Part shown: positions 2,505-20,771 of the stretch, one piece after another
Position numbering within the stretch: position 1 is the stretch's first letter
Layout: each line of letters begins with the position of its first letter
Source of the DNA: a virus
IMG/VR virus record: IMGVR_UViG_3300043446_004900
Coordinates: 1 to 23,041 of that record
Reading direction: 5' to 3' (one strand)
Length of the DNA stretch: 23,041 nt
Translations under genes and position numbers: made by a program
The notes under the pieces: generated by a model
Database searches by the model: none
Seen by the model: the letters and a program-made list of their open reading frames with translations, nothing else
What the model was told of the DNA's origin: nothing

Positions 2505-4784
2505 TTAGTATCCTTGTCTTACAGTGATTGGAGCGCATCCGCCGGCAGTAGCACACGTTGTTGTAACAGTAACATTTTGTCCGCCATTTTGTTGTAGTAT
2601 AACACTAGCAGGGCCTCCGCTGTTAGTTAAATCTAAAGTAGCGCGATTAGCTGTTGTACCCTCTTGAAGTGCGCTAATACTATTATTATTTCCTGTTAGT
2701 TTATTTTCTAAGTAATGTTGGCCTGTACCTTTCTGTACAGCATCAACAGTATTGTTATTTCCAGTAATACTGGTAAACATTATCTTATTACCATTATCTG
2801 TTTGTTTAGCTGTGACACTATTTTGATTGCCGCTTATTGTTGTTTCCATATAGTGACCACCAACGCCTCCAGTATTACTCTGTTGTGTTGTTAGACTATT
2901 ACCATAGCCGTTGATGTCCACACTTTGATAGTGTCCGTTCGTGCCTATGGCCGATCCCTGTGTAGTACGTGCTTGATTAATGTTAAGTGTGTTGCTGTCC
3001 CCTACAACGCTAAAATTGATTTCGTTTTGTCCAGTTCCACTCACTCCTTGATTGATTGTGATATTATTAGAACTGCCTTGTATTTTAGCATATTGTGTTC
3101 CATTGCCGCTAATAAGATTTTTACTACCTGCTTGATCTATAGTTACAGTATTATTATTGCCGCTTACTTGATCAATATAAATTCTATTGCCGTCAGTTAC
3201 TGTTTTGTTTGTCCATACATCAACTCGAGTTTGTTGATCTGTAGTAATTGCACTACCAGTTCCAAATATCATTTCTCCTGGCGTTCCGCTACCAACTGTC
3301 ACATAATCTGGGTACATTGAAAATGTTGTACCAGTTATATCAACAACTGTGCTATTGGAATAAACAACGCCTGAAGTATCGATAGTGTTTGTTTCTGTTA
3401 TCCAGCCTGTAGTAAATGCAGAATTAGGAACGGCCATACGGCCGGCACCGTAGTCCCATTGAAATCGCAAACCATATGCGTTTAAATCGTTCCAATACCA
3501 TGCTTCGATATTATAAGTTTGGCCAGCAACTACATCAATCCAGCCAGAAGCAGTATACCCGCCAAGTATATTTTGTAATTGCCAGGTTGATCTATCGTTA
3601 ATAACATTTTGTCCGTTTATGTCTAAAACAAATCCGTCATCACTGTTACTGTAAAAATATAATCTATAAACACTACCAGCAGGGTGTGCTGTAGTAATTG
3701 GAGCTGTAATTGTTCCTGTGTATGCTACAAGTGTCCCTTCTCCCATACCTGGAAAACTTCCGTTAGTTGGAACATATATACCGTTAGTAGTTCTTCCGCT
3801 AGCAACTTGATTGTACGCACCTGGAGTTAAATTAGGTACACGATAAGGCCCTAACCAATTTTTAATACAACCTAACCAACCACAGTTATAAGTGTAAGCA
3901 TCAAAGTCATATACTTTGTAGTTTAATCCTTGCAAAACATTTTGTGTTGTAGTTGTTGGATTGCCGTTTGCTTCAATTGTAGTAACTCCGCTAGTTGTAA
4001 CTGTATTAATAGGTGTAGTGGTTGTTGTTAGAACACCATTTACAACTTTATTAGTTACTACATTAGAAGCAACTTTAGTTTGATACAATGTTTCTGTACC
4101 GTTACTAGTTGATGTTGTTCCATCACTATAAGTTGTTGTAGTTACAGGTGTGCGATAAACTGTAGTTGTGTTGCCACTTACTACTTGTCTTGTTGTGTAT
4201 GATGTGCTTGTTCCAGTTACTGTTTTAACTGGAGCAGTAGCAGTTACCGTTTGTCCTGCCGCAAGAATAGTTGTACTTCCTCCAGTAGCGTATGTATTAA
4301 CTTGTGCTATTGTAGGATTTAATGTTCCAGTCCATGTAACACCGCTAGTGTTAGAGAAACCTTGAGTCATACTAAACAACTGTCCAGTATTATTATCATT
4401 ACCAACAAAGAAGAAATAGTCTGCACCCATATTAATAATGTGTCCAGTACCCATAACTGCTTTTTGAGTTCCATTAGATGTATACTGTATTGCAAGCCAT
4501 GGATTAGTTGCATCTTGCACACCGTTGACCATGTTAGCTACAAATGCTATGTAATCCCCACTCCCCCAACTTAGTTGTCCGTTGTACCATGGAATTTGAT
4601 ATGCTGTCCCTGGACTTTTACTATAAATTTGGCAAGTGGCTGTATACATACAAGCTGACACGTTCCATTGACTATCGGCAACTTGGTATTGTCCAAACTT
4701 TAAGTCTGCTAAACCAGTAGCTTGGCTATATGCACTAAAGCATATACTCCATAGCAAGGCAAATAAAATCAAAAAACGTTTCAT
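2505..4784 (-). CDS. Secreted PA14-domain protein with C-terminal curlin-type repeats (759 aa)
   Basis: A predicted exported adhesin or fibre subunit. It has a signal peptide (1-20, cut near SAYSQA), an N-terminal domain (about 25-165), a Thr/Val-rich low-complexity linker (about 170-282), a PA14-like domain (about 285-450, with YFYSNSDDGFVLDING and a Trp/Tyr-rich segment) and curlin-like repeats from about 534 to the end. The repeats have the pattern N-N-x-V-x-(I/A)-x-Q, for example NNNTVTIDQAG and DSNTLNINQA. Curlin repeats form amyloid strands in CsgA/CsgB; PA14 domains commonly bind carbohydrate. The fusion suggests a fibre subunit carrying a sugar-binding head. The ATG shares one base with the fecR-like stop (TAATG) and has no Shine-Dalgarno, so it probably depends on translational coupling. 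It lies in the same operon as csgF and csgG. Confidence 0.85.
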   Translation of the reverse strand: MKRFLILFALLWSICFSAYSQATGLADLKFGQYQVADSQWNVSACMYTATCQIYSKSPGTAYQIPWYNGQLSWGSGDYIAFVANMVNGVQDATNPWLAIQYTSNGTQKAVMGTGHIINMGADYFFFVGNDNNTGQLFSMTQGFSNTSGVTWTGTLNPTIAQVNTYATGGSTTILAAGQTVTATAPVKTVTGTSTSYTTRQVVSGNTTTVYRTPVTTTTYSDGTTSTSNGTETLYQTKVASNVVTNKVVNGVLTTTTTPINTVTTSGVTTIEANGNPTTTTQNVLQGLNYKVYDFDAYTYNCGWLGCIKNWLGPYRVPNLTPGAYNQVASGRTTNGIYVPTNGSFPGMGEGTLVAYTGTITAPITTAHPAGSVYRLYFYSNSDDGFVLDINGQNVINDRSTWQLQNILGGYTASGWIDVVAGQTYNIEAWYWNDLNAYGLRFQWDYGAGRMAVPNSAFTTGWITETNTIDTSGVVYSNSTVVDITGTTFSMYPDYVTVGSGTPGEMIFGTGSAITTDQQTRVDVWTNKTVTDGNRIYIDQVSGNNNTVTIDQAGSKNLISGNGTQYAKIQGSSNNITINQGVSGTGQNEINFSVVGDSNTLNINQARTTQGSAIGTNGHYQSVDINGYGNSLTTQQSNTGGVGGHYMETTISGNQNSVTAKQTDNGNKIMFTSITGNNNTVDAVQKGTGQHYLENKLTGNNNSISALQEGTTANRATLDLTNSGGPASVILQQNGGQNVTVTTTCATAGGCAPITVRQGY

Positions 4785-5893
4785 TATTTTTGTGTTACTG
4801 TTATAATAGTATTACCGCCTTGATTAACACGATTTTTAAATTCAATGTTGTTTTGTGTCATTGATATTAAACTGTTTTGTGTTTGCGGAGTTGTAATACA
4901 TATACGGTCAGCACCGTTATCACGACATAACGATACAGTTGGATCTTCTTTAATTACAGTAATGCCACTAGTTTTTTTATAATCAGGTAACATACTATCC
5001 ACTTCACCTAATAATTTTTCGTTAAGTGCATTGCCCATAATGTCAAATATGTTTGCTAGGAAACTGTTATCTAAAAAATTTTGACTTAATCTATCTTGAT
5101 AAAATTGACGGGCACTATCATCTAGTGCATTTGTTAACCCTTGTTCTTTTAAAAAATCAATATCCAACGGGCCTCGCATTTCTTTACGTTGATCTTTGCC
5201 ACCATCTTTTTTCATCTCTTCTGGTGTTGACATTAATAATGTCTCAATAGCTTGTTCGCTAAGATTTAATGTTACAGGTTTGCTAGGAGGAGCACTACGA
5301 CTGTTAGCTTTGGTTGCTTGGAATGGTTGATTTAGTACAACGATTCCTGCATCCGTTTCAACACTGATAGAGCCAACTTTACAATTTGCTTCAATGTCTT
5401 TAAGTGAACGTGTTGGACGGTCAGTTGGACAACTAGGTAGCAGTACAAATGTACTTTGTCCTAGTTCATCGACTGATGCTGTAAAATCTGTACCGCGAAC
5501 ACTTACGGTTGCAGTTGGTGTGTTAAGTGCTACGTTTTGTGGACTGTTTTTAGCAATTTGTCCAGAGGCATAACGAACTGTGCCAAGAGCAATCTTAGCA
5601 CCTAGTTTACCGCTTTTACTTTTTGGGTCGTATACAAAGTCATCAATTACTAATTTACTATTTTCATTAACTTGAACCTTAGTATCGTCCTCAAAGGTTA
5701 TTCCTACTTTGCCCTGTTGTGTCTTGATAGCATCGTTCATCTCCACTCCCGTTCCTTTGGAGCCTGTCAACGTCTGTTTGTCCCTTTGTATACTGGGAGG
5801 AGTATTGATCTGTTCTGTTACTTTGCCTATTGCGGCGTAACTCAACGATGTACTTAGCAACGGTAAGCATAGTATTGCTTTCCATATTCTCAT
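4784..5893 (-). CDS. Secreted FecR-domain protein with a curlin-like C-terminal tail
   Basis: A 369-aa protein with a signal peptide (1-20, SLSYAA) and a FecR domain at about 35-150 (GVEMNDAIKTQQGKVGITF, then TPTATVSVRGTDFTASV). FecR domains sit in the periplasm and are linked to envelope signalling or cell-surface fibre systems. The middle (about 200-310) is charged and probably helical. The last 30 residues (NSLISMTQNN, then GGNTIITVTQK) look like curlin strands, which is odd for a FecR protein and could let it join or nucleate the fibre. The start overlaps the stop of the 57-aa gene (ATGA) with AAGGTGA upstream. The FecR call is firm; the curlin-tail role is inferred. Confidence 0.85.
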   Translation of the reverse strand: MRIWKAILCLPLLSTSLSYAAIGKVTEQINTPPSIQRDKQTLTGSKGTGVEMNDAIKTQQGKVGITFEDDTKVQVNENSKLVIDDFVYDPKSKSGKLGAKIALGTVRYASGQIAKNSPQNVALNTPTATVSVRGTDFTASVDELGQSTFVLLPSCPTDRPTRSLKDIEANCKVGSISVETDAGIVVLNQPFQATKANSRSAPPSKPVTLNLSEQAIETLLMSTPEEMKKDGGKDQRKEMRGPLDIDFLKEQGLTNALDDSARQFYQDRLSQNFLDNSFLANIFDIMGNALNEKLLGEVDSMLPDYKKTSGITVIKEDPTVSLCRDNGADRICITTPQTQNSLISMTQNNIEFKNRVNQGGNTIITVTQK

Positions 5894-6063
5894 TCGTCAC
5901 CTTTCTTAAACCAATGATACTTTTGCAATTCTCTCATTATGGCATCACCAGTAGTATTATTCCACTTAGCAGCCCATTCTACAAAGTCTGCCCAGTCACG
6001 GATGTAATGCTCGTTGCCTTGCATCCATGCCTGGTACATTCTTTGCAGTTCACTTTCAAACAT
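5890..6063 (-). CDS. 57-aa Trp-rich cytoplasmic protein
   Basis: A small gene between the curlin gene and the fecR-like gene. The ATG at 6063 lies one base after the curlin gene stop, and its TGA overlaps the next ATG (ATGA), so translation is probably coupled on both sides. It begins MFESELQRMYQAWMQGNEHY, is rich in Trp (five) and acidic residues, has no signal peptide and looks helical. No family recognised. Its conserved-looking position inside the curli operon suggests a dedicated cytosolic helper or translational regulator (inference). Confidence 0.7.
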   Translation of the reverse strand: MFESELQRMYQAWMQGNEHYIRDWADFVEWAAKWNNTTGDAIMRELQKYHWFKKGDE

Positions 6064-6064
6064 T

Positions 6065-6910
6065 TTACTGTCTTTGTGTAATATTGTATGTGTTGGTATT
6101 AGCAGCAGTTCCCGAACTACCTAATTTTAAATTAAACACGTTTGCATTAGCACTACCTGACTGCGCTAATGTAACGCTATTACCAGTACCGTTAATATCC
6201 ATCCATGCAACATGTCCTGTTGATCCGCCTGCTCCGCTTTGAGCAATATCAATTGTGTTTGTTGCACCTACTGCTCTGATATAAACGTTGCCGTTATCAC
6301 CAGTTAAGTTAGTTGTAACGCTGTTACCTGTTCCGCCACTAGTTTGAATATCTTGTCTAGTGCCAGCTGCAGCAACTGATGAAATTAATGTAGCACCACC
6401 GCCGCTTTGTGTAGCAGACAACTGGTTATCACTTCCAGACATAGTTACGTATGCTGTATTACTACCATTTAACTGTGTAACACTAACAATAGTATCGCTA
6501 GCTCTGGCACTACTTGAGCCTAATTGGAATGTTGCTACGTTATTACTTCCGCTTATATTACCGCTATTAACGGTGCTATAAGTAAAATCAACACTTTTAC
6601 TAGTTCCCATAGTGGCATCAATGCCTAGATTCATTTTGTTATTGCTTCCAGTCTGGTTAATGTTTACGTTAATACCATCACCTCTAATAATAGCAGGATC
6701 AGTTGCACTATTAGTTGCAACTGCTGCTGTCAAACCTTTTACTTGGTTTCCAGCACCATCCTGATTAATAGTAACTGTTGCAAAGTCACCTGACTGATCA
6801 ATATAAATGCTGTTGTCAGCCGCCATACCCAATGTTGTCATTCCAGACAACATCAGCATTGTGAGTAATTTTCTCGACAACCCACCAGCGCCTTTTATTC
6901 TCTTGTCCAT
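6065..6910 (-). CDS. Curlin-repeat protein (CsgA/CsgB-like), major fibre subunit candidate
   Basis: A 281-aa exported protein with a Sec signal peptide ending near GMAADN (about residue 31). The mature part is Asn/Gly/Ser/Thr-rich with imperfect curlin repeats of the form x-N-x-(V/I)-x-I-x-Q-x-G, for example NSIYIDQSGDFATVTINQDG, INVNINQTGSNN and NSVTLAQSGSAN, ending NTYNITQRQ. In curli these strands stack into an amyloid beta-solenoid. It follows csgF and csgG with a 63-base gap that holds two small inverted repeats. It is longer and less regular than E. coli CsgA (about 150 aa). Subunit versus nucleator cannot be settled from sequence. Confidence 0.85.
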   Translation of the reverse strand: MDKRIKGAGGLSRKLLTMLMLSGMTTLGMAADNSIYIDQSGDFATVTINQDGAGNQVKGLTAAVATNSATDPAIIRGDGINVNINQTGSNNKMNLGIDATMGTSKSVDFTYSTVNSGNISGSNNVATFQLGSSSARASDTIVSVTQLNGSNTAYVTMSGSDNQLSATQSGGGATLISSVAAAGTRQDIQTSGGTGNSVTTNLTGDNGNVYIRAVGATNTIDIAQSGAGGSTGHVAWMDINGTGNSVTLAQSGSANANVFNLKLGSSGTAANTNTYNITQRQ

Positions 6911-6973
6911 CTTTTTAAAATGATTGCTTTCTATTCACAATCAAGTTCCTTGGTCATTGACCTGTTATAGTTA

Positions 6974-8182
6974 TTACTGCTTCACCTCTTCTAATTTTTC
7001 AAGACGAATCCAACCACCTCGGTTAGTTCCGTCCTCGGTTTTGACTCTCACCCAACCTTCACTCCCAGGTTGTAAAACACTTATTTCAGTACCTTTGGCT
7101 ATCCACCACTTTCGGGTACTTTTTTCATCTTGATCTATATGTAAGAAAGCATTCTCTTTTACCTGTCGTCTTCCAAATAATACTACAGGTTCTTTCTTTA
7201 CTTCTGTGGCGGTACTGGGTACGGCCTCGGGCTTGGTTTCGGATGGGGTTTGCGGTTGTACCACGACATCTTTTTTCTCCTCAACTTTAGCTTCTTGTTT
7301 TATTTCACTACTAATAACAGGACTAGATTTTGGTTCTATTACAAGTGGTGCAGGGCCCTGTGGAATAAGTTGAGCTGCAACTGGCTCTTGTCTGTAATCC
7401 CAAACGCCTTTGCGTTGTCCTTCTTTAATCAATTCTACAACTGCCATTTCGGTGGCGGCTTTTACAGCATAAGTGCCAGGTTCGTTAATTGTTAATCCTG
7501 CTTCTGCTTCAAAACTTTGTGTTGCATTATCAAAGAATTTCAATGCTGTTACGCTGTCTCCTGTACTAAGAATAGTCTTTTGTACAGTAACAGTCATCAG
7601 TACTTTACCTGTGTTTACGCTAACTGCTCGTAAACTTACGGTAACTGTGTCTGTGCTCCATTGTGTTTGTTTGCCTATGCCAAAAATACGCATACCAGCG
7701 CCACCGCTAGTAGTACTTGTATCATAACCTACAATGCCGCCTTCAATAATAATACCTGCAAATTGCATTGGCATTAATGGTTTGGCATTAGTACCTTCAT
7801 ATGCTTCGCGCATTTGACGTATAATTAAACGTTCTTTAGTTAAGTTATCAATACCAACACGTTCTACAACTTCAAACCATTGCCCTTTGCCCACGTTTTG
7901 TAATGCTGAAATTAAGAATGACTCAGCACCTTGTGTAACTGCTGTTGACAAACTGGCTACGTTTGCCTGTGGACGACGTTGTCCTGTTTTATCTGTAAAA
8001 CTATAAACTGCTACGCTAACTGGTTTTCCAGCTGCAGGTGAAGGAATGGTGTCAAATTCTTTTTTGACATTTTTCATTTGGCTTGTTATTTCTGGGTCTT
8101 TATCTAGATGCCCAGTAGATTGCATTACTGCACAACCGCTTAATACTGTTAATATTGCTAAGGAAATTAGTGTCTTTTTCAT
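6974..8182 (-). CDS. csgG: CsgG-type curli secretion lipoprotein with added SH3-like domain
   Basis: Outer-membrane lipoprotein expected to form the oligomeric pore exporting curli subunits. The signal peptide ends in lipobox LSGC (Cys17). The CsgG domain covers about 45-275, including SVAVYSFTDKTGQRRP, the WFEVVER segment and a glycine-rich GGIVGYDTSTTSGGAGMRIF stretch. After it come a Pro/Glu/Lys-rich linker (about 278-335) and an SH3-like region (about 335-398, ending GGWIRLEKLEEVKQ) that E. coli CsgG (about 277 aa) lacks. SH3-like modules often bind peptidoglycan, so this may anchor the pore. The ATG follows the csgF stop by 3 bases. Confidence 0.92.
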   Translation of the reverse strand: MKKTLISLAILTVLSGCAVMQSTGHLDKDPEITSQMKNVKKEFDTIPSPAAGKPVSVAVYSFTDKTGQRRPQANVASLSTAVTQGAESFLISALQNVGKGQWFEVVERVGIDNLTKERLIIRQMREAYEGTNAKPLMPMQFAGIIIEGGIVGYDTSTTSGGAGMRIFGIGKQTQWSTDTVTVSLRAVSVNTGKVLMTVTVQKTILSTGDSVTALKFFDNATQSFEAEAGLTINEPGTYAVKAATEMAVVELIKEGQRKGVWDYRQEPVAAQLIPQGPAPLVIEPKSSPVISSEIKQEAKVEEKKDVVVQPQTPSETKPEAVPSTATEVKKEPVVLFGRRQVKENAFLHIDQDEKSTRKWWIAKGTEISVLQPGSEGWVRVKTEDGTNRGGWIRLEKLEEVKQ

Positions 8183-8185
8183 GTC

Positions 8186-8665
8186 TTAATTCCCAAATTG
8201 AAATTGGCTTAGTGGTATTTCCACTTGTGTTGGTGTTCCTGCAATATCAGTTACACGCATAACTACACTAGAAGTAGTTTTCCACCATGTAATATTGTTA
8301 CCTTCAAAATCAAATGATCCACAAGGCGCACTGTATGAACTTGAAGATGTTGAACAACTACCGCTATTTGCAAACATACTAGCCGCTAAATTTTGACTAA
8401 TTTGTGCATAGATACGTGATTCTAAGTTATTTAGAAATTTCTGTAAATTGCTGTTTTGTTTATCAGCTGCCGCTTTATCCAATGCTGCTTGAACTTGATC
8501 GCGCCATGCTTTTTGTCTAGTATATTCTTGATTTTCTATAGTTAAGACATGGCTGCTGTAACCAACACCATTAAATGCAGGACTTTTGAATGTATAGTCA
8601 GCAAGAGGTGCTGACATGCCCGTTAAAGGCAATAATACTAATAATGCTATTAGTTTTTTTGACAT
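8186..8665 (-). CDS. csgF: CsgF-type curli assembly protein
   Basis: A 159-aa exported protein with a signal peptide (about 1-18). The mature start is ADYTFKSPAFNGVGYSSHVL, which matches the CsgF N-terminus that inserts into the CsgG pore (Phe-x-x-Pro-x-Phe-x-Gly). It also has the helical SQNLAASMFAN segment, and the C-terminal part forms strands (VVMRVTDIAGTPTQVEIPL). A Ser/Cys-rich insertion (GSCSTSSSSYSAPCG) is not in E. coli CsgF. It is the first gene of the curli unit, with GGGAG 8 bases before the ATG and its own promoter upstream. No CsgE, CsgC or CsgD is visible. Confidence 0.88.
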   Translation of the reverse strand: MSKKLIALLVLLPLTGMSAPLADYTFKSPAFNGVGYSSHVLTIENQEYTRQKAWRDQVQAALDKAAADKQNSNLQKFLNNLESRIYAQISQNLAASMFANSGSCSTSSSSYSAPCGSFDFEGNNITWWKTTSSVVMRVTDIAGTPTQVEIPLSQFQFGN

Positions 8666-10656: not shown

Positions 10657-10664
10657 TATTTATG
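10657..10664 (-). promoter_or_regulatory. CATAAATA late-promoter-like box before the 636-aa gene
   Basis: Minus-strand CATAAATA overlaps the stop codon of the bilin reductase gene and lies 8 bases before the ATG of the 636-aa gene. It is the same box as at 14695 and 22416. No Shine-Dalgarno follows, so the transcript would be almost leaderless if this is a T4-type late promoter. Confidence 0.4.
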
Positions 10665-11340
10665 CGATTTCAGGGAAGAGGCATTCCTGTATGAATACCC
10701 GCACATCATCTTCGTTTAGCCCTAAACTAGCCATTACACGCGGTGTATGCGGGTTTTGTTTTTGATTATCACAATAGTAATTTTGATGTGATGTTGTATC
10801 TAAAACTGTATTATTAGTTTCTGCTACCGTGCTTAGATAGTGTGCAAGAGTAGTTTTTGCCATAGCAATAATTTGATCTAACTCTTCTTCGCTTTGTACA
10901 TTACCTGCAGCTACCATACTAGGACTAAAAATGCGTTTAGCCCAGTCAGGAAGTTCACGTTCTCTGCGCCATTCTAGTTTAGCAACTTCATCTGCAAACC
11001 AGTCCATCATAGGGTGAAACGTGTCGCCCGCTGCCGAGTAATCGTGAAAACAACCGGTAATTTTGTTCTTACCTGCTACAACGTCAAATCCGTAAATTGG
11101 TGCTGGGTTATGTATGTGCGGGAAAATGCAACAATGCATCATCCACAAGCCTTTAGTTTCTCTAGCGTCTACTACATCAACGTGAGCACGGCGATAACTA
11201 TCAGAAGTCCATACACGATTAATCCACCCAGGTTGATTGAATCGATCCATTCCTGGTTCAAAGATTTCAGTGCCAGTCCTGCCAAATTCTGTCTCTAATA
11301 AATGCTGAACTTCTATCAGCGTGTCCCAAACTTTACTCAT
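10660..11340 (-). CDS. pcyX: Ferredoxin-dependent bilin reductase (PcyA/PcyX/PebS family)
   Basis: It reduces biliverdin to a phycobilin with electrons from ferredoxin. The core LWMMHCCIFPHIHN, then PIYGFDVVAG, matches PcyA around His88 and Asp105, with the same 17-residue spacing (His73 and Asp90, counted from the upstream TTG). PcyA Glu76 appears replaced by Asp59 in AHVDVVDA. The C-terminal NYYCDNQKQNPHTPRVM motif is typical of the family. I chose the ATG at 11340, which overlaps the heme oxygenase stop; a TTG at 11352 is possible. The pair is therefore translationally coupled. Known phage members are PebS and PcyX, which make phycoerythrobilin; PcyX is PcyA-like in sequence, as this one seems to be. 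The exact product cannot be read from sequence. Confidence 0.88.
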   Translation of the reverse strand: MSKVWDTLIEVQHLLETEFGRTGTEIFEPGMDRFNQPGWINRVWTSDSYRRAHVDVVDARETKGLWMMHCCIFPHIHNPAPIYGFDVVAGKNKITGCFHDYSAAGDTFHPMMDWFADEVAKLEWRRERELPDWAKRIFSPSMVAAGNVQSEEELDQIIAMAKTTLAHYLSTVAETNNTVLDTTSHQNYYCDNQKQNPHTPRVMASLGLNEDDVRVFIQECLFPEIA

Positions 11341-11890
11341 AGTCCTTGGCAATAACTAACATTTCGTCAAAGAAACGTCTAGCAAACTCAAAGCATACTT
11401 TTGCTTCTTCTGCTAAACTATCATCTAATTTACTACGGATTGCTTCTTTGATCTTTTCTGGATCATCACCAAACTCGTAATATCTTCCTACACCTGGCAC
11501 ACGTTTTTTAATCATTTGGCCGCCGCTGAGATCTCCCATATGACGTACATAAATGTGTGCCATTAATAATTTTGGATCATGTTTAATGCTTAAAATATGT
11601 CTCATGTAGTCATCAACTACTGGACACATGCGAGGATTTTCTGTATTGTCCTCTCCCCATAATTCCATAAAGTCGGCTAGAATAGCAGGTGCTCTGCGAA
11701 TTTCAGGCAGACCACTAAACAAGTTATGCGGCATAGCGCATACTTCTAAAATTTCATATTGCGGATGCTGATTTTTTAAATATGTTGCGTATAATTTTGG
11801 ATTAATTGATCCTGAAAATAGAATTTTTACAAAAGCTGAACGTTCTGCATTAGTATGTGCTTCTTTTGTTAGTTCTCTTAAATTGCTCAT
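11333..11890 (-). CDS. ho1: Heme oxygenase (biliverdin-producing)
   Basis: It opens heme to biliverdin, CO and ferrous iron, using reduced ferredoxin in this pathway. It has 185 aa, shorter than cyanobacterial HO1 (about 240). The proximal heme ligand is His12 in LTKEAHTNAE, and the distal helix motif GDLSGGQMI (119-126) is intact, so it should be active. The ATG overlaps the clpS stop (ATGA) and its own stop overlaps the reductase start, giving a clpS-ho-reductase unit. Biliverdin is the reductase substrate, so the two genes form a complete heme-to-phycobilin route. Released iron could feed the phage Fe-S proteins (inference). Confidence 0.93.
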   Translation of the reverse strand: MSNLRELTKEAHTNAERSAFVKILFSGSINPKLYATYLKNQHPQYEILEVCAMPHNLFSGLPEIRRAPAILADFMELWGEDNTENPRMCPVVDDYMRHILSIKHDPKLLMAHIYVRHMGDLSGGQMIKKRVPGVGRYYEFGDDPEKIKEAIRSKLDDSLAEEAKVCFEFARRFFDEMLVIAKDYE

Positions 11891-12189
11891 TCTTCCTCCA
11901 ATTTAATTTGGAGAGGAAATCCGTTAGTACGTGCCTGCTGAGTTGCTTCAACTGCTTTGGCCTCGGCAATTTCAAAACTATAAACACCTGCAATACCACT
12001 GCCTGTTTCGTGTACTTGAAACATGATTTCTTTTGCAGTATCAGGAGTGTGTTTAAAAATCTCAACTAGTAATGAAATTACAAATTCCATTGGCGTCGAG
12101 TCATCGTTTAGCAAAATAACTTTCCAACGCTTTGGTTCTTGGACCGTTACTTTAATCTTTTCATCTAGTTGAATATCGGTGCTAGGCAT
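11887..12189 (-). CDS. clpS: ClpS, N-degron adaptor for ClpAP protease
   Basis: ClpS binds proteins with bulky N-terminal residues and hands them to ClpA/ClpP. The 100-aa protein has the diagnostic KVILLNDDSTPMEFVISLL segment (substrate pocket around NDD-TPMEFV) and the VHETGSGIAGVYSFEIAEAKA segment. The N-terminal tail (1-22), which engages ClpA in cellular ClpS, is present. No clpA or clpP is in the window, so it would act on the host protease. It is preceded by a strong GC-rich hairpin and AAAGAG, and is coupled to heme oxygenase (ATGA). It might spare or redirect host proteolysis. Confidence 0.93.
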   Translation of the reverse strand: MPSTDIQLDEKIKVTVQEPKRWKVILLNDDSTPMEFVISLLVEIFKHTPDTAKEIMFQVHETGSGIAGVYSFEIAEAKAVEATQQARTNGFPLQIKLEEE

Positions 12190-12208: not shown

Positions 12209-12228
12209 GGGGGAGTTTTACCTCCCCC
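12209..12228 (-). terminator. Strong hairpin between hsp20 and clpS
   Basis: GGGGGAG pairs perfectly with CTCCCCC around loop GTAAAA. It is followed by ACAATTTAAAGAG, not a T-run, so it is not a classic terminator. It may set mRNA stability or processing between hsp20 and clpS, or act as a partial terminator. Confidence 0.6.
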
Positions 12229-12237
12229 GGGTTACAG

Positions 12238-12666
12238 TTATTTAATTTCAATTACACGTGGTTTTAGTGCTTCTGGCACAATACGCTCAATTTGAATCTT
12301 AAGCATACCGTCTTTAACTTCAGCACCTTTTACTTCCATGTATTCTGCTAGTGTAAAATGTTGTTGAAAATCTCTAGCAGCCAATCCACGATGTAAGTAC
12401 TCTTTACTGTCGTTTTCAGTAGACTTTGTTCCTGTAATTGTAAGTTGATCTTGATCAACTTCTACAAGAATCTCGTCTTTACTAAAACCAGCAACTGCTA
12501 CTTCAATACCGTAATGTGTTTCATCATATTTTACAATATTGTGTGGAGGATAGTTACCATTTTGGTTACCTTGAAAGAAACGATCATTGAAATAACGATC
12601 GAATCCTACTAGGGCTCTGTTAAGCTGAGCTAGAGCTTGTGTATCAATAGTTCTTAATTGTGTCAT
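12238..12666 (-). CDS. hsp20: Hsp20/IbpA-type small heat-shock protein
   Basis: A 142-aa ATP-independent holdase that binds unfolding proteins and passes them to DnaK. The alpha-crystallin domain (about 38-130) begins with PPHNIVKYDETHYGIEVAVAG. It contains GFSKDEILVEVDQDQLTITG, the loop strand EYLHRGLAARDFQQHFTLAEY and the closing GMLKIQIERIVPE. The Leu-Lys-Pro-Arg and IEIK ending resembles IbpA. It follows dnaK and shares with it a duplicated leader (12674-12721) that may act as an RNA thermometer. Small heat-shock proteins occur in cyanophages; pairing one with DnaK is less common. Confidence 0.95.
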   Translation of the reverse strand: MTQLRTIDTQALAQLNRALVGFDRYFNDRFFQGNQNGNYPPHNIVKYDETHYGIEVAVAGFSKDEILVEVDQDQLTITGTKSTENDSKEYLHRGLAARDFQQHFTLAEYMEVKGAEVKDGMLKIQIERIVPEALKPRVIEIK

Positions 12667-12673
12667 TTTATAT

Positions 12674-12721
12674 CTCCTTAATTAAGCAAGAATGTGTAGG
12701 GCCCGACCATCGGCACCCTAC
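12674..12721 (-). promoter_or_regulatory. hsp20 leader: hairpin plus possible fourU-type RNA thermometer
   Basis: On the minus strand, GTAGGG...CCCTAC form an outer stem (12696-12721). Next come ACATTCTTGCTTAA and the Shine-Dalgarno AAGGAG (12674-12679). UUCUU (12688-12692) can pair with AAGGA (12675-12679) across an 8-base loop, masking the ribosome site with a weak 5-bp helix. The same design precedes dnaK. Thermometer function is inferred from this layout. Confidence 0.5.
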
Positions 12722-12733
12722 GTTTTTATTATA

Positions 12734-14638
12734 TTACTTTTTATCTGTTGGGTCAACTTCTTTGAAACTTGCATCTACAGTTGTATCACCAGATTGGCTC
12801 GACTGTTGATTTTTGGCTTCTTCAGCGGCTCGTTTCTTTTCAAAAACTGGAGTTGCAGATTCAAATAAGTCTTGAACAGATTTGTTAATTGTTTCAACAT
12901 CGTTACCTTTGATAGATTCATCAAGAGTTTTAAATGCTGATTCAATTTTGGCTTGTTCTTCATCGTTCAAACTACCTTTGTGTTCTTCGTAGTCTTTCTT
13001 CAATGTATGAACAGCCGCTTCTGCACTGTTACGTGCATCGATAAGTTCACGAGCTTTTTTATCTGCTTCAGCATTTTCTTCCGCTTCACGAACCATACGT
13101 TCGATTTCAGCTTCTGAAAGTCCAGAATCAGATTTGATCGTGATCTTATTTTCTTTACCAGTGCTTTTATCTTTAGCACTAATGTTCATAATACCGTTTG
13201 CATCGATATCAAATGTTACTTCGATTTGTGGCATACCACGTGGTGCTGGGTTAATGCCGTCTAACTTAAATTCGCCAAGTGCTTTGTTGTATTTGAACAA
13301 TTCACGTTCACCTTGTGCTACTTTAATATCAACAGCTGGCTGGTTGTCTTCTGCTGTACTAAATGTTTGGCTAGCTTTAGTTGGGATAGTTGTGTTCTTT
13401 TGAATTAACTTGGTAAACACACCGCCCATTGTTTCAATACCTAGGCTCAATGGTGTAACGTCTAGTAATAGAACGTCTGTCTTGTCTCCTGCTAACACAG
13501 CACCTTGGATGGCTGCACCTGCGGCAACTGCTTCGTCTGGGTTAACGTCTTTACGTGGTGCCTTGCCGAACAGTTTCTCAACTGCTTCTTGCACTTTAGG
13601 CATACGTGTTTGTCCGCCAACCAAGATAACTTCATCAATATCGTTAGCTGTGACGTTTGCATCTTTCATAGCAATCTTACATGGCTCAATTGAACGCTCG
13701 ATTAGTTTTTCAACCATTGCTTCAAACTTAGCACGAGTAAGTTTTACATTTAAATGTTTTGGACCGCTTGCGTCTGCTGTAATGTATGGCAAGTTGATGT
13801 CTGTACTTGCAGAACTAGATAATTCAATTTTAGCCTTTTCAGCTGAGTCTTTTAGGCGTTGTAGAGCCAACATGTCTTTCTTAAGATCGACGCCATTTTC
13901 TTTCTTAAATTCTTCTACCAAGTAATCCATGATAGCTTGGTCAAAGTCTTCACCGCCTAAGAATGTATCACCGTTTGTTGATAATACTTCAATTTGCTTG
14001 TCGCCGTCGATGTTGGCAATTTCGATAATAGAGATATCAAATGTACCACCACCTAAGTCATAAACTGCAATCTTACGATCCTTTTTACTTTCTTTATCAA
14101 CACCATAGGCTAGTGCAGCTGCTGTTGGTTCGTTAATAATACGCAGAACTTCTAAACCTGCAATCTTACCTGCATCCTTAGTTGCTTGACGTTGTTGGTC
14201 GTTGAAGTATGCTGGTACTGTAATAACTGCTTTGTCTACAGTTTCACCTAAATAGTCTTCAGCAGTTTTTTTCATCTTGCGAAGAACTTCAGCACTAATT
14301 TGTGGAGGTGCTAATTTTTCGTTATTTGCTTCTACCCATGCATCACCATTTTCTGCTCTGATGATAGTATAAGGCATTAAGTCAATGTCTTTTTGTACAG
14401 CCTTTTCTTCAAACTTGCGTCCGATCAAACGCTTGGCTGCGTAAATTGTATTCTTTGGATTTGTTACTGCTTGTCGTTTTGCTGTTGCACCTACGAGAAC
14501 CTCGTCATTGGTGTAAGCTACGATTGATGGTGTTGTTCTAGCACCTTCGCTGTTTTCAATTACTTTAGCCTTACCATTTTCTAGTACTGCTACACAGCTA
14601 TTTGTTGTACCTAAGTCGATACCGATGATTTTGCTCAT
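12734..14638 (-). CDS. dnaK: DnaK (Hsp70) chaperone, full length
   Basis: ATP-driven chaperone of 634 aa, the same size as bacterial DnaK. The nucleotide-binding domain (1 to about 385) has the [14 protein letters not shown] phosphate loop, [26 protein letters not shown] and [11 protein letters not shown]. The linker [13 protein letters not shown] is intact, followed by the substrate-binding beta domain and the helical lid (about 510-600). The tail ends EVDPTDKK, close to the cellular EEVxDKK ending. Nothing is truncated, so it should work with host DnaJ and GrpE, neither of which is in the window. The phage IscU also carries the LPPVK motif read by the Hsp70 HscA. The gene probably came from a bacterial host. 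It is preceded by the shared leader and a CATAAATA box. Confidence 0.98.
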
Positions 14639-14645
14639 TTTTGTT

Positions 14646-14689
14646 CTCCTTTGTTAAGCAAGAATATGTAGGCCCTAACGGCGCTCTAC
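14646..14689 (-). promoter_or_regulatory. dnaK leader: hairpin plus possible fourU-type RNA thermometer
   Basis: This is a second copy of the hsp20 leader. A GTAG...CTAC stem (14668-14689) is followed by ATATTCTTGCTTAAC and AAAGGAG. UUCUU (14660-14664) can pair with AAGGA (14647-14651) over an 8-base loop, exactly as before hsp20. The strings TTAAGCAAGAAT (plus strand, 14654-14665 and 12682-12693) are identical, while the hairpin arms differ but keep pairing. Both copies precede heat-shock genes. Confidence 0.5.
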
Positions 14690-14694
14690 AATTT

Positions 14695-14702
14695 TATTTA
14701 TG
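14695..14702 (-). promoter_or_regulatory. CATAAATA late-promoter-like box upstream of dnaK
   Basis: Minus-strand CATAAATA overlaps the stop codon of the MazG-like gene, 56 bases before the dnaK ATG. If used as a T4-like late promoter, the transcript would carry the whole hairpin and thermometer-like leader. Confidence 0.45.
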
Positions 14703-19879: not shown

Positions 19880-20206
19880 TTAAACTCGAAATGATTCGCC
19901 GCACCCACAGCGATCACGTTCGTTTGGATTGACAAAGTCAAACCCTTCATTAAGTCCGTTGCGGACCCAATCTATAGTTAGCCCATTTAGATAGGCTAGA
20001 CTTTTAGCATCAACAAGTATTGCAAAATCAGGTTGAGCAAAATTGGTTACACCTACTTCTGCTTCATACTTGTCCACATATTCTATGGTATAAGCCAATC
20101 CGCTACAACCTGTAGTTTTTACACCTAACCGAATTCCAATACCCTTGCCACGTTTCTCAAGCAGTTGTTTGATTTTCTTTTTGGCTGTGTCGGTTACGGT
20201 AATCAT
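19880..20206 (-). CDS. iscA: IscA/HesB-type Fe-S carrier protein
   Basis: A-type carrier of 108 aa that binds iron or Fe-S clusters and passes them to target proteins. The three conserved cysteines are present: Cys34 (TTGCSGLAY) and Cys100/Cys102 (DRCGCGESF). ITVTDTAKKKIKQLL is the usual N-terminus. The gene overlaps the end of iscU by 50 bases; AAGGCGG lies before the ATG inside iscU. The natural target in the phage context could be ferredoxin, needed by heme oxygenase and bilin reductase, or ribonucleotide reductase (inference). Confidence 0.95.
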   Translation of the reverse strand: MITVTDTAKKKIKQLLEKRGKGIGIRLGVKTTGCSGLAYTIEYVDKYEAEVGVTNFAQPDFAILVDAKSLAYLNGLTIDWVRNGLNEGFDFVNPNERDRCGCGESFRV

Positions 20207-20561
20207 TTACTGCCGCCTTGATAGCATCTTCTGCCAATATACTACAGTGTATCTTAACGGGCGGTAACGCAAGCTCAGTAGCGATATCTGAGTTCTTGAT
20301 AGTACCTGCCTCGTCAAGTGTTTTGCCCTTGAGCCACTCTGTGACAAGACTAGAACTGGCAATAGCACTACCGCAACCATAAGTCTTAAATTTAGCATCC
20401 TCGATTATCCCATCGTCGTTGACTTTGATTTGTAGTTTCATTACGTCCCCACAAGCAGGTGCGCCAACCATTCCGGTACCCACGCTAGGATCAGACTTGT
20501 CAAAACTACCCACATTACGAGGGTTTTCATAATGATCAATTACCTTGTCACTGTATGCCAT
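20157..20561 (-). CDS. iscU: IscU Fe-S cluster scaffold
   Basis: Scaffold on which cysteine desulfurase and iron build [2Fe-2S] clusters. The 134-aa protein has Cys37 and Asp39 (APACGDV), Cys63 (YGCGSAIASS), and His105/Cys106 (KIHCSIL), numbered as in E. coli. The chaperone-recognition motif LPPVK (99-103) is intact, so it should be unloaded by an Hsp70 (host HscA, possibly phage DnaK). No iscS, hscA or fdx is in the window. The C-terminus is about 6 aa longer than usual because it runs into iscA. The ATG lacks a Shine-Dalgarno and follows a GATAAATA box by 4 bases. Confidence 0.96.
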   Translation of the reverse strand: MAYSDKVIDHYENPRNVGSFDKSDPSVGTGMVGAPACGDVMKLQIKVNDDGIIEDAKFKTYGCGSAIASSSLVTEWLKGKTLDEAGTIKNSDIATELALPPVKIHCSILAEDAIKAAVNDYRNRHSQKENQTTA

Positions 20562-20576: not shown

Positions 20577-20771
20577 TTATTTTGCGTCTTTGCGAGCGTT
20601 CTTAACTGCTGTTACATCGTTACGAACATCTTTACAGAGTTTGGCAAGTTCTTGTAAGTGTTTGCGAACACGGGTACCGGCAGCACCAACTTCTTTATCG
20701 TAGAACTTTTCGAAATCGCCTTCCATTGCTTCTACGATTGCTGTAAATTCCGAGTATCTGTTATTAGCCAT
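20577..20771 (-). CDS. Histone H1-like (Hc1-type) small protein
   Basis: A 64-aa helical, Lys/Arg-rich protein: FEKFYDKEVGAAGTRVRKHL, then LAKLCKDVRNDVTAVKNARKDAK. This matches the N-terminal domain of Hc1-type bacterial histone H1-like proteins (FDKFY...AAGTRVRKxLQ...LxKxxR). Such proteins bind DNA and may compact phage or host genomes. The long Lys/Ala-rich tail of chlamydial Hc1 is absent. It has its own sigma-70 promoter (20812-20840), a small hairpin in the leader and AAAGGAG before the ATG, so it is probably made early and abundantly. Confidence 0.75.
   Translation of the reverse strand: MANNRYSEFTAIVEAMEGDFEKFYDKEVGAAGTRVRKHLQELAKLCKDVRNDVTAVKNARKDAK

Follow-up and report, generated by a model that had tools for sequence, protein, structure and literature searches.

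Fixed linkage of a clpS gene to the heme oxygenase-pcyX cassette in a large clade of big phages

In a 23,041-nucleotide stretch of viral DNA (IMG/VR record IMGVR_UViG_3300043446_004900; hereafter, the window), the gene for the N-degron adaptor ClpS is joined to genes for a heme oxygenase (HO) and a PcyX-type bilin reductase, and this fixed linkage of clpS to the known phage HO-pcyX cassette is real and strongly conserved. The clpS-HO-pcyX order is more than a local arrangement: it characterizes a large clade of big phages that includes more than 100 lineages. HO-pcyX and HO-pcyA/X-valaS cassettes, PcyX itself, and phage ClpS, ClpA, ClpP and CsgFG have all been published (PMC11480375, PMC7824862, PMC12619734, PMC7029224, PMC9004378), the ClpS of jumbo phages being noted in PMC7824862. 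A description of clpS linked to HO-pcyX was not found in the openly licensed literature that was searched, which is weak evidence of absence, and ClpS goes unmentioned in the paper on CB_2 (PMC11480375). The account that we favor, and to which we would give roughly an even chance, is that these genes form a co-translated phage operon, which arose when the HO-PcyX cassette became attached to an older hsp20-clpS module in one large clade and has been kept since, with HO and PcyX dismantling the heme that is freed by ClpS-fed proteolysis.

The genes concerned lie on the minus strand, in the order dnaK, hsp20, clpS, HO, pcyX, a 636-aa gene without assigned function, csgF and csgG. clpS (11887-12189, 100 aa) is recognized by PF02617 (9.4e-30) and by matches to ClpS proteins in the PDB (to 2.1e-19); HO (11333-11890, 185 aa) is of the HO-1 type (PF01126, 2.5e-25; PDB heme oxygenases, to 1.6e-16); and pcyX (10660-11340, 226 aa counted from its ATG) encodes a ferredoxin-dependent bilin reductase (FDBR; PF05996, 1.6e-15). 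The stop of clpS and the start of HO share ATGA at 11887-11890, the stop of HO and the start of pcyX share the eight nucleotides ATGAGTAA at 11333-11340, and a Shine-Dalgarno sequence for HO, GGAGG (11895-11899), is nested within the last clpS codons (LEEE), the corresponding position in most relatives having GGAGGAAGA or GGAAGAAGA. The flanking gaps are free of overlap (67 nt between dnaK and hsp20, 48 nt between hsp20 and clpS, 11 nt between pcyX and the next gene). The first-pass annotation had described both overlaps and had considered the three genes as one translationally coupled unit; the overlaps are borne out by the sequence and, along with the internal Shine-Dalgarno site, support a single unit whose layout is that of translationally coupled genes. 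What such overlaps indicate is a potential for coupling, as distinct from coupling proper. Whereas a phage gene pair that shares ATGA is nothing unusual by itself, the conservation of the clpS/HO overlap is out of the ordinary: it measures exactly 4 nt in 74 of the 83 distinct loci and in 89 clusters of a wider set of ~118, and in most relatives HO and pcyX overlap by 4-29 nt. The possibility that the HO Shine-Dalgarno sequence is covered by a hairpin (CUCCAAAUUAAAUUGGAG, at the 3' end of clpS) which translation of clpS would open was considered and rejected: the hairpin, though present in the window, is not conserved in relatives.

Viral contigs were scanned with PcyX, the best 80 of 385 confirmed relatives being kept, and with ClpS, the best 80 of 240 being kept, while a ClpS alignment used as the query extended the set to relatives with as little as ~48-50% identity; gene order was read by tblastn and HMMs. 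Clustering at 95% identity yielded 121 ClpS clusters, 117 of them scorable downstream and 113 upstream. In these samples, which comprise best-scoring rather than random matches and in which clustering lessens the recurrence of near-identical fragments but leaves some, HO adjoins clpS downstream in 108 of 117 clusters, lies 80-400 nt off in 8, and is absent from a single one (L292). PcyX comes after HO in all 116 clusters, directly in 98 and 60-3000 nt away in 18, and hsp20 is located directly upstream of clpS in 109 of 113, dnaK holding this position in the remaining 4. When only the clusters gathered by ClpS, and hence blind to HO, were counted (n=71), HO was adjacent in 63, near in 7 and missing in 1. 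The recurrence of the clpS-HO-pcyX order, proposed in the initial annotation as a check, is thereby established, and the observation that the annotation had named as telling against it, clpS placed elsewhere in relatives, was not borne out, the order being near-universal. A correlation of pairwise distances between ClpS, HO and PcyX was discarded, since the loci had been picked by identity to either gene.

The residues expected for activity are kept in ClpS, HO and PcyX, so that all three are predicted to be active. HO retains H12, which we take to be the proximal histidine, and the GDLSGG (GDxxGG) motif of what is presumably the distal helix; both are conserved, the motif in 119 relatives. 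ClpS, whose N-terminal extension is by alignment ~6 residues shorter than that of E. coli ClpS, retains N28, D29, T32 and H60, which, judging from the E. coli protein, we assume to form the N-degron pocket, as well as E73, E76 and K78, presumably the positions that dock onto ClpA. Across the phage ClpS proteins, the equivalents of the docking residues E79, E82 and K84 are E in 122 of 122, E in 122 of 122, and K in 112 with R in the other 10. By their sequences, neither HO (starting with MSN) nor PcyX (starting with MSK) carries an N-degron. Because E. coli ClpS inhibits the degradation of ssrA-tagged substrates by ClpAP (PMC9663308), the phage protein, with its docking residues kept, might be envisaged as a shield that spares phage proteins, ssrA-tagged or not, by redirecting ClpAP, heme breakdown being a separate benefit; yet the pocket residues (N34, D35, T38 and H66 by their equivalents) are invariant in 122 of 122 phage ClpS, and a mere blocker would not need them, so that we regard this role as very improbable.

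The bilin reductase belongs to the FDBR family and is nearer to PcyX than to PcyA or PebS; the best solved structure, 5owg ('PcyX_EBK42635'), is matched by phmmer at 3.5e-69, far closer than PcyA (3.8e-14). It retains D55, H69 and D86. Asp55 is the PcyX-specific catalytic residue that is missing from the PCB-forming enzyme of the freshwater phage CB_2 (PMC11480375), whereas the window clade has D55 in 114 of the 117 PcyX sequences compared, the window's own included; characterized PcyX enzymes yield phycoerythrobilin (PEB). The vHemO of CB_2 is active (PMC11480375). The proposal that HO and the reductase together complete a route from heme to a phycobilin is therefore supported by the families and the kept residues.

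The window's cassette resembles the hemO-pcyX cassette of Mosig EXVC030M and the metagenomic EBK42635 in that a PcyX gene comes straight after HO and overlaps it; the window's PcyX is ~51% identical to that of Mosig and aligns along its length with the EBK42635 protein. Unlike the window, the marine pelagimyophage cassette has no clpS, hsp20 or dnaK nearby and is followed by gp13, and in Mosig and many of its relatives genes for 2OG-Fe oxygenases and ferrochelatase lie upstream of HO-PcyX. The hemO-pcyA/X-valaS phages of freshwater and marine habitats, such as CB_2, combine HO and an FDBR with an ALA synthase (PMC11480375). An ALA synthase adjacent to HO-pcyX, the feature that defines the hemO-pcyX-valaS cassette, is not part of the window's arrangement; none was seen among the annotated window genes, and in relatives the gene resides elsewhere on the contig. 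Conversely, the ClpS genes of the jumbo phages PA5oct, Atu_ph07 and Phosso lie near hsp20, as in the window, but without a neighboring HO or PcyX.

Phages that carry only a part of the unit shed light on its origin. None of the 80 pelagimyophage-type (Mosig-like) HO-PcyX loci contains clpS, and none contains hsp20 or dnaK, the upstream sequence being short in many of them; in these loci, the gene after HO-PcyX is usually that of the neck protein gp13. A separate alignment was used to sample the ClpS of other jumbo phages, and in the resulting set, which mixes members of the window clade with others, ~20 clpS loci are devoid of HO and PcyX, often with hsp20 beside clpS. PA5oct has hsp20-clpS, and Phosso and Atu_ph07 have hsp20-thymidine kinase-clpS, in each case without HO; PA5oct ClpS used as a scan query retrieved one locus only. 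The association of hsp20 with clpS is thus wider than the HO-PcyX linkage, which suggests that ClpS was at first part of a general proteostasis module and is most simply understood if, in a single large clade, HO-PcyX was added to hsp20-clpS genes that were already together, a direction that we infer.

Since hsp20-clpS without HO suggests such an earlier, general role of ClpS, shared timing is a live alternative to the co-translated operon: ClpS would serve general proteostasis along with Hsp20 and DnaK, HO-PcyX would merely occupy the same expression slot, and the synteny would reflect descent together with recombination within the slot. The occurrence of each part without the other, as well as the tolerance of insertions between clpS and HO and between HO and pcyX, fit this possibility. 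The adjacency nevertheless persists despite changes in the order of hsp20 and dnaK, moves of PcyX, and replacement of HO, and the leaders of hsp20 and clpS differ in ways described below; we consider shared timing alone possible, if on the unlikely side.

The replacement of HO can be judged from its sequences, which divide into two large groups with <50% identity, plus several small groups. Over 97 loci, the changes between the A and B labels of HO that are needed number at least 11 on the DnaK tree, at least 17 on the PcyX tree and at least 9 on the ClpS tree, counts that are rough as they come from quick trees. Because the HO label switches many times on the trees of its neighbors, HO has been replaced repeatedly at its place next to clpS and pcyX; the feature kept would then be the presence of a heme oxygenase in the slot.

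The gap between hsp20 (12238-12666; PF00011, 1.4e-18) and clpS holds a GC-rich hairpin, GGGGGAG-GUAAAA-CUCCCCC (12209-12228, minus strand; z -2.86). Of 116 hsp20-clpS gaps, 111 have a stem with six or more base pairs, the loops being mostly GNRA in relatives and GUAAAA in the window; the hairpin is mostly located 15-25 nt ahead of clpS and lacks a U-rich tail, so that it is no typical terminator. Among 37 distinct stems, 98% of the cells are paired and 62 have changed on both sides (shuffle mean, 12), and the covariation score is reached by 0 of 500 shuffles, with the reservation that stems picked by folding favor pairing and inflate such counts. An independent comparison of the folding energy of the whole gap with shuffled sequences gave a median z of -3.12, with 110 of 116 gaps below -2. 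The T4-late-like TAAATA found before the hairpin in 63 of 111 loci was dismissed, as it is confounded by the C-terminal codons of hsp20 (Ile-Lys-stop).

The leader of hsp20 (12661-12722, minus strand) resembles a ROSE-type RNA thermometer, although its Rfam ROSE_3 score of 32.4 bits (E 4.3e-4) is below the gathering score of 43, and at the gathering threshold Rfam gave no match, either in the window or in any of 17 relatives. The motif in the window is UUCUUGCUUAA..AAGGAG with a hairpin upstream, and a ROSE-like motif also occurs in the leader (14639-14697) of the dnaK open reading frame (12734-14638, both on the minus strand). The UYGCU anti-SD/SD motif is found in 90 of 119 hsp20 leaders and 75 of 99 dnaK leaders, versus 0 of 121 clpS leaders. 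No description of ROSE-like elements in these phages was encountered in the openly licensed literature searched. Ahead of hsp20, a sigma70-like sequence, TTGACC-17-TATAAT (12728-12756, minus strand), is a candidate promoter for hsp20-clpS-HO-pcyX; sigma70-like sites in the local scan are no commoner than chance, and this one matches at 11 of 12 positions. A similar site precedes hsp20 in 53 of 119 relatives, versus 1 in shuffles. Just before the hairpin, a promoter-like site is found in ~19 of 111 loci, versus 1.4 in shuffles, so that a separate start is possible for the clpS unit. The anatomy of the leaders, namely the hairpin, the absence of the thermometer motif at clpS, and the promoter-like sites, thus sets clpS-HO-pcyX apart from the heat-shock genes, which speaks against shared timing alone.

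As the window is a 23-kb fragment, the wider gene content was searched in 14 related contigs of 133-364 kb, which represent relatives distinct from the window's own phage. ClpP is encoded in 11 of the 14 (9 with strong canonical scores) and an open reading frame of ClpA size with a ClpB_D2-small domain in 10; the three such frames that were scanned fully contain Clp_N and have TIGR02639 (ClpA) as the best match, at 885-895 bits with the cut-off at 993. ClpA and a strong ClpP co-occur in 7 of the 14, so that related large phages, whose ClpA-like proteins are of full length, possibly encode a whole ClpAPS system; neither protein was seen in the 191-kb relative G011, and the window's own phage may lack both. 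IscU is present in 12 of the 14, and the window itself carries iscU and iscA-like genes (19880-20561, minus strand; TIGR01999, 7e-69; TIGR02011, 5.5e-40, below cut-off), the products of which are a possible sink for released iron. ALA synthase, the enzyme of the Shemin pathway, is encoded in 7 of the 14 contigs, far from clpS-HO-pcyX; in G003, its gene adjoins clpP. Because 2Fe-2S ferredoxin and leucyl/phenylalanyl transferase (Aat) were each found in 0 of the 14, both would need to be supplied by the host.

With regard to the host, the best cellular DnaK proteins among the matches listed come mostly from heterotrophic Burkholderiales, such as Limnohabitans and Polynucleobacter (~68-75%). The nine genomes of this type that were searched all carry their own ClpS (36-46% identical) and HemA, and in the cellular loci that were read clpS adjoins a clpA-like gene. 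A phage population from Baikal that carries genes for DnaK, curli and S21 has been assigned to Methyloglobulus (PMC7678222). The window, too, contains a curli-related cluster (2505-8665, minus strand) with CsgF, CsgG, a FecR-domain protein and two curlin-like repeat proteins, one of 759 aa (Curlin_rpt, 5.5e-4, just under the cut-off) and one of 281 aa; as published pelagimyophages reportedly lack CsgA/B, these candidate curlin subunits may matter. Also on the minus strand are genes for a 692-aa protein with CHASE2 and adenylate/guanylate cyclase catalytic domains (111-2189) and a 64-aa Hc1 histone H1-like protein (20577-20771; PF07432, 4.2e-18); PHROGs gave little for the unassigned proteins of the window. 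The candidate hosts bear on the idea that the pigment itself is the purpose, phycoerythrobilin or another bilin being made for a light-sensing or light-harvesting protein of the infected cell. The kept D55 and the known product of PcyX enzymes accord with this idea, but mostly heterotrophic candidates do not, and a light-harvesting role was doubted by the authors of the CB_2 study for the proposed alphaproteobacterial hosts (PMC11480375); we hold it to be the least credible of the explanations considered here.

The presence of HemA in the candidate hosts raises another alternative, in which ClpS would be a dedicated regulator of tetrapyrrole synthesis: it would deliver host HemA to ClpAP, shutting heme synthesis while HO consumes heme, and phages with ALA synthase would bypass HemA. 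The precedent of Clp control over heme synthesis makes this reading testable: in Salmonella, GluTR/HemA is among the substrates of Clp, in chloroplasts it binds ClpS1, and heme stimulates its degradation (PMC7966870, PMC6597238, PMC4214671). Tetrapyrrole metabolism is a target of the Clp machinery in both systems, plant ClpS-Clp, where ClpS takes part, and Salmonella ClpAP-Lon (PMC7966870, PMC6597238), but neither comes with a described operon that contains HO or a bilin reductase. An ALA synthase, as such a bypass would demand, is encoded in half of the large contigs and was not seen in the other half, and the hosts are candidates only, so that a dedicated control of HemA appears unlikely.

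Returning to the co-translated operon, its workings can be envisaged as follows. Ribosomes that end translation of clpS would re-initiate first at HO and next at pcyX, yielding the three proteins together and at a set ratio. ClpS would deliver N-degron proteins to ClpAP, encoded by the host and, in many related phages, by the phage as well, and the breakdown of host proteins, including heme proteins, would free heme. HO would open this heme to biliverdin, CO and Fe2+, PcyX, drawing on host ferredoxin, would reduce the biliverdin to phycoerythrobilin, and the iron would supply Fe-S assembly, the phage having IscU/IscA of its own. Hence, as we infer, the part of ClpS in heme handling is most likely to be co-timed proteolysis with salvage of heme and iron. 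The ALA synthase of half of the related contigs counts against this scheme, as it makes heme precursors, and so do the lack of an N-degron in HO and PcyX, the need for ferredoxin and Aat from the host, and the chance that the window's phage has no ClpA or ClpP. In a broader scheme, which we offer as speculative and rather doubtful, ClpA, ClpP and ClpS constitute a phage-run N-degron protease within a heme/iron program: ClpS, in fixed ratio with HO, would direct the destruction of host heme proteins or HemA, HO-PcyX would dismantle the heme, and phage ALA synthase and IscU would rebuild the tetrapyrrole and Fe-S economy of the host to the phage's ends.

Published work has not settled why phages of non-photosynthetic bacteria carry HO and bilin reductases, and calls their co-occurrence enigmatic (PMC11480375). 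A near-universal ClpS partner with a conserved overlap, together with phage-encoded ClpA, ClpP and IscU in relatives, places these enzymes in a testable setting of protein destruction and heme/iron recycling. Judging by D55, PcyX-type enzymes occur beyond the pelagiphage type, and the ROSE-like leaders and the covarying hairpin mark off the heme unit from the heat-shock genes. Taken together, these data suggest that the giant aquatic phages of this group control protein destruction and heme breakdown jointly during infection.
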